33,988 nucleotides of DNA from Flavobacteriaceae bacterium. Its GTDB lineage: Bacteria > Bacteroidota > Bacteroidia > Flavobacteriales > Flavobacteriaceae. Shown piece by piece: positions 29,056 through 31,894 of this stretch. The position numbers and the translations under genes were made by a program. The stretch is taken from the NCBI GenBank assembly GCA_002723075.1, contig PBNJ01000003.1, positions 1-33,988 of the forward strand. The letters run 5' to 3'. The notes beneath the pieces were generated by a model. That model worked only from the letters and a program-made list of their open reading frames with translations. It was not told the origin of the DNA and did not search any database. Each line of letters opens with the position of its first letter. Within the stretch, counting starts at the first letter, position 1.

Positions 29056-30960
29056 TTATTTGACTTCTTCAAAGTCTACATCTTCTACGTCTTCGTCGTT
29101 GGTCTCTCCAGATTGTGCACCTGCATCTGCTTGTGGTTCTGCGGCACCACCTTGATCAGCTTGAGCTTTGTACATCTCTTCAGAAGCATTTTTCCATGCC
29201 TCATTAATGCTGTCCAGCGCAGGTGTAATCGCCTCTACATCTTTGGCTTCATATGCTTTTTTCAAAACTTCTAAAGCGTCCTGAATCGGTTTCTTCTTCT
29301 CATCTGACAATTTATCTCCAAATTCAGTCAACTGCTTTTCGGTTTGAAAAATCATGGCATCAGCATTGTTTAGCGTATCCACTTGGTCTTTAGCTTTTTT
29401 ATCGGCCTCTGCATTTGCTTCGGCCTCTTTTTTCATCTTTTCGATTTCTTCTTCCGTTAATCCTGAAGAAGCTTCAATTCGGATGTCTTGAGACTTATTT
29501 GTAGCTTTATCAAGTGCAGTGACCTGAATCAAACCGTTTGCGTCAATATCAAAAGTCACCTCAATTTGTGGTGTGCCTCTAGGAGCTGGCGGAATTCCAT
29601 CTAAGTGGAATCTACCTATGGTTTTGTTATCAGCAGCCATCGGACGCTCACCCTGTAAAACATGGATTTCTACTGAGGGCTGGTTGTCAGCTGCTGTTGA
29701 AAACACTTGTGATTTTTTTGTGGGTATCGTTGTGTTTGCGTCGATCAACTTGGTCAACACTCCACCCATGGTCTCAATTCCCAATGAAAGGGGAGTTACG
29801 TCGAGCAGCAGCACATCTTTGACATCTCCTGTGAGTACACCTCCCTGAATCGCAGCACCAACGGCAACAACTTCGTCAGGATTTACACCTTTAGAAGGTT
29901 TTTTCCCAAAGAATTTTTCAACTTCTTCTTGAATCACGGGGATTCGAGTTGAACCACCTACCAAAATAACTTCATCAATTTCATCAGTTGATAGTCCAGC
30001 ATCTGAAAGTGCATTCTTGACAGGTGTCATTGAGCGCTTAACCAAATCAGCGGATAACTGCTCGAATTTGGCTCTGGTCAATGTTTGAACAAGGTGTTTT
30101 GGCCCGGATGCAGTTGCCGTTACATACGGCAAATTGATTTCAGTTTGCGTTGAGGATGATAATTCAATTTTCGCTTTCTCAGCAGCTTCTTTTAGTCGTT
30201 GAAGAGCCATTGGATCTCCTCGTAAATCAACATCTTCTGCAGATTTAAACTCTCCAGCAAGCCAGTCGATAATTACCTCATCAAAGTCATCCCCACCAAG
30301 GTGAGTATCTCCATTGGTTGACAATACCTCAAAAACACCATCTCCGAGCTCAAGAACTGAAATGTCAAATGTACCTCCTCCAAGGTCATATACTGCAATT
30401 TTTTTATCACTGCCACCCTTGTCTAATCCATATGCCAATGCAGCTGCTGTTGGTTCGTTGATAATTCTATGAACTTTTAAGCCTGAAATTTCTCCTGCCT
30501 CTTTAGTAGCTTGACGCTGGGCATCATTGAAATAAGCAGGAACAGTGATGACAGCATCAGTTACTGACTGCCCAAGATAGTCTTCAGCAGTTTTTTTCAT
30601 TTTTTGCAAGATCATCGCAGAAAGTTCTTGCGGGGTATACAAACGGCCATCGATATCAACCCGTGGCGTGTTATTATCACCTTTTACAACAGCATAAGGG
30701 ACTCGTTTAATTTCTTTTGTTGATTCGGAAAATTTATTTCCCATAAATCGCTTTACGGAGGAAATCGTTTTGGTTGGGTTTGTCACAGCTTGACGCTTTG
30801 CTGGATCTCCGACTTTGATTTCGCCTCCTTCAACAAATGCAATAACAGAAGGTGTTGTTCGCTTGCCTTCAGCGTTGGGAATAACAACAGGCTCGCTCCC
30901 TTCCATCACAGAAACACAAGAGTTTGTTGTTCCTAAATCAATACCGATTATTTTACTCAT
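29056..30960 (-). CDS. dnaK: Chaperone DnaK (Hsp70)
   Basis: 634 residues. ATP-driven chaperone. Opening [17 protein letters not shown], phosphate-2 [19 protein letters not shown], and signature [22 protein letters not shown] mark the ATPase domain; the substrate domain begins after [17 protein letters not shown], and the lid ends in the acidic tail [17 protein letters not shown] typical of bacterial DnaK. Monocistronic here: no grpE or dnaJ beside it, own terminator after it, and no TAnnTTTG box before it; instead inverted repeats at 30982-31039, so an alternative or stress-linked promoter is plausible. Confidence 0.98.
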
Positions 30961-30981
30961 GATTTATATTTTTTTCACCCT

Positions 30982-31039
30982 AACTCAATGACTATGCCAT
31001 TAGAGATATACTGACAGGGTGTCAGTCAACGATTGAGTT
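30982..31039. promoter_or_regulatory. Nested inverted repeats between dnaK and panB
   Basis: Inner palindrome ACTGACA (31010-31016), GGG, TGTCAGT (31020-31026), perfect 7+7. Outer arms AACTCAAT (30982-30989) and ATTGAGTT (31032-31039), perfect 8+8, the right arm covering the panB TTG -33 element. A regulator-binding operator or a transcript hairpin are both possible. Confidence 0.5.
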
Positions 31040-31061
31040 TCAGCTTTATAATGTATTTTTG
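31033..31061 (+). promoter_or_regulatory. Promoter of panB
   Basis: TTG (31033-31035), 18 bases, TATTTTTG (31054-31061): an exact -7 box at acceptable spacing. The implied start of transcription is within about ten bases of the ATG. Confidence 0.65.
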
Positions 31062-31075
31062 AACAAACTTGTACC

Positions 31076-31894
31076 ATGTCCAAGATCAATAAAGAATATA
31101 AACGAGTTACGACGAACAGTCTCATTGAGATGAAAGTGTCAAATGAGAAGATTTCTATGCTTACTGCATATGATTATTCAATGGCCAGTGTAGTCGATGC
31201 TGCAAACGTTGATGTAATTTTAGTTGGAGATTCTGCTTCCAATGTCATGTCGGGTCACGAAACAACTGTACCAATTACGTTAGATCAAATGATTTATCAT
31301 GCGTCAGGGGTTGTTAAGGCGAGTAAGCGCGCTCTTGTCGTTGTTGATTTGCCGTTTGGCAGCTATCAATCTGACGCACAAGAGGCACTTCGGTCATCTA
31401 TTCGGATCATGAAAGAGTCAGGTGCACATGCTGTCAAGCTTGAAGGTGGCCAAGAAATTGAGCAATCGATTATCAACATTCTCAATGCTGGAATCCCAGT
31501 AATGGGGCATTTGGGGCTTACTCCACAATCGATTTATAAATTTGGAACCTACTCCGTCAGGGCTAAGGAAAAAGAAGAAGCTCAAAAACTTATTTCGGAT
31601 GCAAAAAAGTTGGAGAAGCTTGGCTGCTTTGCGATTGTTTTGGAAAAAATCCCTTCGGCGTTAGCAAAGCAAGTTGCGGAATCTGTACGTATTCCCATCA
31701 TTGGAATTGGAGCAGGTTCTGATGTTGATGGGCAGGTGCTCGTCGTTCATGACCTTATTGGTTTGACCAATGCGTTTAATCCTCGGTTTTTGAGAAGATA
31801 TATGAATCTGTTTGAGGATATGAAAACAGCCATCGAAAATTATGTTTCCGATGTAAAATCCGTTGACTTTCCAAATCAAAACGAACAATATTAA
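31076..31894 (+). CDS. panB: 3-Methyl-2-oxobutanoate hydroxymethyltransferase
   Basis: 272 residues, normal length. Transfers a hydroxymethyl group from methylene-tetrahydrofolate to 2-oxoisovalerate, first step of pantothenate (CoA) synthesis. Motifs: [39 protein letters not shown] in the N-terminal part (metal-binding Asp), [21 protein letters not shown] and [25 protein letters not shown]-barrel, cytoplasmic. Followed directly by the pseudouridine synthase gene, no bases in between. Confidence 0.96.

Follow-up and report, generated by a model that had tools for sequence, protein, structure and literature searches.

Promoters that depend on σ54 (RpoN) require an AAA+ activator. Activators of the NtrC, NifA, and NorR type act from inverted-repeat enhancers upstream of the −24/−12 elements, and a dependence on helical phase is known for such enhancers. 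PspF, the phage-shock activator of Escherichia coli, has no sensory domain, pairs an AAA+ domain with a Fis-type helix-turn-helix (HTH), and represses its own σ70 promoter. Palindromes at the dnaK and groESL promoters are also known from the CIRCE element of HrcA, and Bacteroidota have RprY, an OmpR-type response regulator. According to the accessible text of PMC3646045, RprY of Porphyromonas gingivalis binds the dnaK, groES, and clpB promoters of this member of the Bacteroidota.

For flavobacterial chaperone control, the sigma factor is known. In Flavobacterium psychrophilum, σ54 motifs (SM4) lie at the mapped starts of dnaK, groES-groEL, grpE-dnaJ, htpG, clpB, and lon, in the same family and at the same chaperone promoters as considered here; chaperones are induced on blood agar and under other conditions, and the main text leaves the activators open (PMC9723704). 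A term search of that main text turned up neither an enhancer palindrome nor a spacing rule nor a named activator; to the regulator gene adjoining lptE the paper assigns an SM5 promoter. A survey of σ54 promoters describes an enrichment of chaperones in Flavobacteriia (PMC12316311, accessible text). The reference given in the same text (number 80) for σ54-dependent grpE/groES in Bacteroides thetaiotaomicron is a paper on nitrogen recycling in Blattabacterium, an uncertain basis for that statement. The σ54 promoter class at chaperone genes is thus already known, and what look new are the enhancer and the candidate protein: searches of the accessible full-text literature and of the text of these two papers yielded no report of the palindrome, its phasing, or its activator. 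Our analysis names a candidate set of one gene, one 13-bp site, and one spacing rule.

Here, we analyzed a 33,988-nucleotide stretch of DNA (the window) from the draft genome, 85% complete, of a Flavobacteriaceae bacterium (assembly GCA_002723075.1, contig PBNJ01000003.1). A preliminary description had pointed to nested inverted repeats between the divergent genes dnaK and panB. We conclude that the inner palindrome is very probably the enhancer of a σ54-dependent chaperone promoter and is likely to be served by an activator that we call bEBP1.

Promoters and repeats between dnaK and panB

The window ends with dnaK (HSP70; 29056 to 30960, minus strand), its divergent neighbor panB (ketopantoate hydroxymethyltransferase; 31076 to 31894, plus strand), and two further open frames. 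The inner palindrome, ACTGACAGGGTGTCAGT (ACTGACA-GGG-TGTCAGT), is present at 31010 to 31026 as described earlier, and its core, TGACA-N3-TGTCA (31012 to 31024), is the part that is kept and helically phased in relatives. Between the palindrome and dnaK lies a σ54-type promoter that the first reading had overlooked and that makes an enhancer the probable role of the site. On the minus strand, this −24/−12 element, TGGCATAGTCATTGAG (30999 to 30984), consists of TGGCAT (30994 to 30999), 12 nt from the palindrome core, and TTGAG (30984 to 30988). From the position of the −12 element, dnaK transcription is predicted to start at 30973 ± 2 nt, and the palindrome would be centered near −45. The absence of a TAnnTTTG box before dnaK, which had been remarked on, follows from the promoter being of the σ54 type. 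For panB, the letters give a plausible σA promoter on the plus strand at 31033 to 31061, with TTG at 31033 to 31035 and TATTTTTG at 31054 to 31061 across an 18-nt spacer, as judged against the consensus TAnnTTTG in the main text of PMC9723704. The palindrome is upstream of both predicted promoters.

The outer arms, AACTCAAT (30982 to 30989) and ATTGAGTT (31032 to 31039), were also reported correctly, and the right arm does cover a plausible panB −33 TTG. The letters are real, but we judge their pairing a coincidence and reject a nested element that includes the outer repeat: the partner of the left arm is missing in the closest relative among the matches listed (L005; dnaK 96% identical), and the window has 59 perfect inverted repeats of 8 nt with a spacer of 0 to 60 nt, versus 55 expected (∼0.19 per 115 bp). 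The left arm, which the −12 element overlaps, reads on the opposite strand as the −12 region of the dnaK promoter.

Perfect 7-N3-7 palindromes occur 3 times in the window versus 3.2 expected. Palindromes of such size are therefore no surprise in the window, and the case for the inner one rests on comparison. Taken as anonymous repeats, its arms are at chance level, which speaks for a rival reading: a palindrome without function or an RNA hairpin of the dnaK leader, the latter raised in the preliminary description. We dropped the hairpin because the palindrome precedes the −24/−12 element and by its position would be outside the predicted dnaK mRNA. Its location upstream of the panB promoter as well, and its frequency in relatives (below), also argue against both a hairpin and chance, which we regard as extremely improbable.

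Conservation, phase, and recurrence of the palindrome

For comparison, we took the best 80 named dnaK loci of a scan (more than 80 exist) that were flavobacterial or Bacteroidetes by title. One locus, L074, was left out as its dnaK start is cut by a contig edge, and 79 relatives plus the window make up a set of 80 that are mutually dependent by descent. A direct count places TGGCA-N6-TTG, which has the spacing of σ54 −24/−12 elements, before dnaK in all 80. The −12 TTG is at fixed spacing throughout, and the C of the classical TTGC is mostly A (71%); that the window reads TTGA against the consensus TTGC counts against the σ54 reading. rpoN was found in 58 of 60 genomes, including the source genome (E value, 4.1e-48), and the two without a match are 58% and 69% complete. 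In the source genome, plain TGGCAY-N5-TTG has 56 matches versus 11 for the control.

In 77 of the 80 dnaK upstream regions, the 80 nt preceding the −24 element contain the core palindrome with 9 or more of its 10 bases matching. Resampled sequence gives an expectation of 0.45, roughly 170-fold lower. The exceptions match 8 of 10 bases at 70 nt (L009), 7 of 10 at 43 nt (L020), and 8 of 10 at 53 nt (L060), and L005 keeps the inner palindrome. As had been stated, this site is not CIRCE, TTAGCACTC-N9-GAGTGCTAA, for which the best match is 12 of 18 bases among the 80 dnaK upstream regions and 13 of 18 among 37 groES upstream regions; CIRCE was rejected on these numbers. Both elements are palindromes at the dnaK and groESL promoters, but they differ in sequence, and the control proposed here is positive rather than negative.

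Gaps between the palindrome and TGGCA follow a simple rule. At dnaK they are 11 to 13 nt in 61 of the 80 upstream regions (12 nt in the window and in L005) and overall are 12 nt or 12 nt plus whole turns (33, 43, 54, or 65 nt). When the dnaK and groES sets are pooled, all gaps of >20 nt (37 palindromes matching 9 or more of 10 bases) are 32 to 34, 42 to 44, 53 to 55, or 65 nt. Phase coherence computed from these 37 peaks near 10.5 bp (R, 0.92), a value reached in 0 of 20,000 random draws. Because the relatives are not independent, the safer figure is that for the ten distinct gaps (R, 0.88; 0 of 20,000 random draws), for which 10.75 bp is an equally good period. The mean phase of the distal gaps is 1.49, compared with 1.5 for the 12-nt gap. 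A protein acting on polymerase from one and the same side of the helix would produce such phase dependence.

Two corrected groES gaps stand outside the phase statistics: measured from the TGGCA nearest the gene, L291 has a palindrome at 65 nt plus an 8-of-10 site at 12 nt, and L302 has an 8-of-10 palindrome at 44 nt. Off-phase palindromes matching 8 of 10 bases occur at groES with gaps of 50 nt (L309) and 4 nt (L303). The groES promoters of L288, L303, L304, L305, and L306 each carry two in-phase palindromes, with gaps of 12 and 32 to 34 nt; a proximal and a distal site in one promoter would fit a hexamer that is nucleated by two dimers. By eye, a half-site seems to be left at the proximal position in several dnaK promoters whose palindrome is distal.

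In the mechanism that we propose, σ54 RNA polymerase would wait in a closed complex on TGGCAT-N5-TTGAG before dnaK. bEBP1 would bind TGACA-N3-TGTCA close to the polymerase and on the same helix face, its dimer at −45 adjoining the enzyme, and would open the promoter using ATP, presumably upon heat or the appearance of unfolded protein. Activators of σ54 usually bind farther upstream than a palindrome centered near −45, which counts against this proposal, and the PspF sites at pspA are farther from the promoter. A promoter-adjacent σ54 activator site that shifts by whole turns in evolution would bear on how activators contact polymerase.

Of 60 family genomes, 12 contain exact CTGACA-N3-TGTCAG, with 13 sites versus 4 for the reversed control, and in the source genome the inner palindrome is the only exact ACTGACA-N3-TGTCAGT site. 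The search for CTGACA-N3-TGTCAG being unpromising alone, we read the motif jointly with the −24 element. The composite of palindrome and −24/−12 elements occurs once in the window, with 0 mismatches, versus 0.01 expected at up to 3 mismatches. At up to 2 mismatches, 40 of 41 family genomes, the source included, contain it (130 matches, versus 2 for the reversed pattern). Twenty composite sites, hand-picked from 8 genomes, were fetched and their downstream genes read: 17 precede chaperone genes (htpG, 6; grpE-dnaJ, 5; groESL, 3; dnaK, clpB, and hsp20, 1 each) and 1 precedes secA, and the others precede genes for a TPR protein and an ABC transporter. Pfam searches of nine downstream genes confirmed htpG (twice), grpE (twice), secA, clpB, hsp20, the TPR protein, and the ABC transporter. 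The composite before secA is in G023 (L178:395-433) and would link secretion to the chaperone regulon in that genome.

At up to 3 mismatches, the source genome has the composite at dnaK (0 mismatches), htpG (2), and grpE-dnaJ (3). The control also gives 2 matches and, at 3 versus 2, is not clean, so that the htpG and grpE sites rest on their position and on the relatives. The groES promoter of this genome has palindromes at gaps of 33 nt (9 of 10 bases) and 23 nt (8 of 10) with a degenerate −12 element. A second site in the genome, AGAGACATTTTGTCAGT then TATATTTG, lies downstream of a small HTH regulator (L003:2700-2760; contig C16:95911).

The preliminary description would have given up its idea of a chaperone-gene regulatory site of Bacteroidota had relatives lacked the palindrome or had other chaperone promoters been without it; the opposite was found, with the site kept before dnaK in relatives and before other chaperone genes. 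We propose that the same activator and geometry would drive groESL, grpE-dnaJ, and htpG, joined in part of the genomes by clpB, hsp20, and secA.

A palindrome beside a promoter is also what an operator commonly looks like, and we weighed a repressor, RprY-like or other, that closes the σ54-type promoter when chaperones are unneeded. A repressor, however, would rarely need sites that shift upstream by whole turns, as far as 65 nt away from the −24 element, and a σ54 promoter needs an activator anyway, for which the source genome offers the one protein with a Fis-type domain that we found there. As far as the accessible text of PMC3646045 goes, RprY seems to repress the groES, dnaK, and clpB promoters of P. 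gingivalis; it did not bind the htpG promoter, yet htpG has the composite in 6 of the 20 fetched sites. Weighing both sides, we consider a repressor very unlikely.

Candidate activators

The enhancer reading calls for an activator, and bEBP1 is the likely one. This protein of 414 amino acids has an AAA+ domain from residue 13 (PF00158; E value, 8.1e-67) and a C-terminal Fis-type HTH (PF02954; 5.7e-13), with no receiver, GAF, or other sensory domain. The Fis-type domain HTH_8 has a single match in the source draft genome, in bEBP1, and exactly one each in 29 of 40 genomes searched; PF00158 has 8 matches in the source genome, of which two are strong among the matches listed (bEBP1 and bEBP2). 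The gene order in the source genome is miaB-bEBP1-lptE-TPR-secG-groES-groEL, with lptE, TPR, and secG assigned by reading. In an alignment of 69 bEBP1 proteins (42 belong to free-living relatives and 27 to reduced genomes; L219 was left out), the recognition-helix residues SERTLYRK are identical in all 69, although these residues are also frequent in other Fis-type domains. The loop reads GAFTGA in 40 and GSFTGA in 29; the proteins were selected by their loop, and only this split is informative.

bEBP1 works like PspF, with the same domain plan, but it is not PspF: it scores 271 bits, below the TIGR02974 cutoff of 443.55, and its target genes are others. With NtrC, NifA, and NorR it would share an inverted-repeat enhancer upstream of the −24/−12 elements, but it falls below all of the NCBIfam equivalog cutoffs shown, has no sensory domain, and is assigned a site that abuts the promoter. 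Because a sensory domain is missing, control of bEBP1 through a partner is likely; a chaperone is the obvious candidate, and our guess is that free chaperones restrain bEBP1.

The palindrome also recurs at the operon of bEBP1 itself. Of 42 bEBP1 neighborhoods, five had no groES match and were left out of the groES set, and one without miaB was left out here; in 34 of the remaining 41, the 200 nt before miaB contain the palindrome with 9 or more of 10 bases matching, versus 0.30 expected. By eye, this copy is mostly just before or over the −33 element of a TAnnTTTG-like promoter, and that position suggests negative autoregulation: from its site near the σA-type promoter, the activator would probably limit its own synthesis. 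Two contigs of the source genome (L002:1-640 and L003:1054-1650, at the start of C10 and the end of C16) share a segment that includes a truncated permease-like frame as well as the miaB promoter with its palindrome; this segment is either a duplication or an assembly variant.

The enhancer could be real and yet be bound by another protein, for example, with bEBP2 acting through a separate DNA-binding partner. The bEBP2 gene (L173:4963-6111; contig C2 of the source genome) comes directly after grpE-dnaJ, and in many relatives a protein of about the size of bEBP2 has a strong PF00158 match, a top one among the matches listed. bEBP2 has a receiver and an AAA+ domain, but no HTH, and GAFTSA for GAFTGA; furthermore, reduced genomes with rpoN have a relative of bEBP1 as their only strong activator and keep the dnaK element. 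A binder other than bEBP1 is therefore, in our assessment, very unlikely.

Reduced genomes of the same order

A natural experiment is offered by 41 genomes, most of them reduced, from one family of the same order, which we reached through its 0.3-Mb member G086. To judge by their size and by PMC3971599, they probably belong to insect symbionts, for example, Blattabacterium and Sulcia (names that we infer). rpoN is present in 28 of the 41. All 28 have a single strong activator match, with blastp scores of 394 to 516 bits to bEBP1 versus 192 to 221 bits to bEBP2. Strong activator matches in the reduced genomes number 29 (E value, ≤2.9e-61; the next is 1.4e-11). Among the 13 genomes without rpoN, 12 have no strong activator and G097 has a 281-amino-acid remnant that blastp does not clearly assign (156 bits to bEBP1 and 172 bits to bEBP2). 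The σ54 element of dnaK matches at 8 or 9 of 9 positions in all 28 genomes with rpoN. Of the 13 that lack rpoN, 12 reach 6 of 9 at most, and in the remaining one, G106, no TGGCA occurs within 250 nt of dnaK. As computed across the 41 genomes, rpoN, an intact bEBP1, and the dnaK −24/−12 element are retained or lost jointly; the split is one of six genera with rpoN versus three without, so that the independent losses are few.

The retention of rpoN in such symbionts has been called unusual and tentatively tied to nitrogen (PMC3971599, accessible text). Chaperone expression would be a possible and simpler reason for keeping rpoN in reduced insect symbionts, and the palindrome system is probably also at work in some of those with tiny genomes. 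More tentatively, and with less than even confidence, we suggest that bEBP1 may be the master activator of the chaperone (heat-shock) response in Flavobacteriales, without a sensor of its own, restrained by free chaperones, and acting from next to the promoter, and that the need for chaperones may be what keeps σ54 in symbionts of 0.3 to 0.6 Mb.

The palindrome at dnaK is more loosely placed in these genomes, which counts against the enhancer reading. Matches of at least 9 of 10 bases in 23 reduced genomes are 51 to 88 nt away and poorly phased (R, 0.65; distinct gaps, 0.46), so that the dyad found elsewhere upstream of and in phase with the promoter lacks clear phasing at dnaK of the 0.6-Mb genomes; the G086 palindrome is 120 nt away, and 4 of the 28 genomes with rpoN have none at 9 of 10 bases. 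Because the palindromes are farther off, the strict composite search gives matches in only 7 of the 41. A groES start could be read at 6 of the 30 bEBP loci from reduced genomes (L192 to L221). Also against that reading, the palindrome was not found at two of these starts, L195, where TGGCA is present, and L218, which has neither; the other four have it with 10, 10, 10, and 8 of 10 bases at gaps of 23, 33, 44, and 44 nt, the same series as in the free-living relatives.
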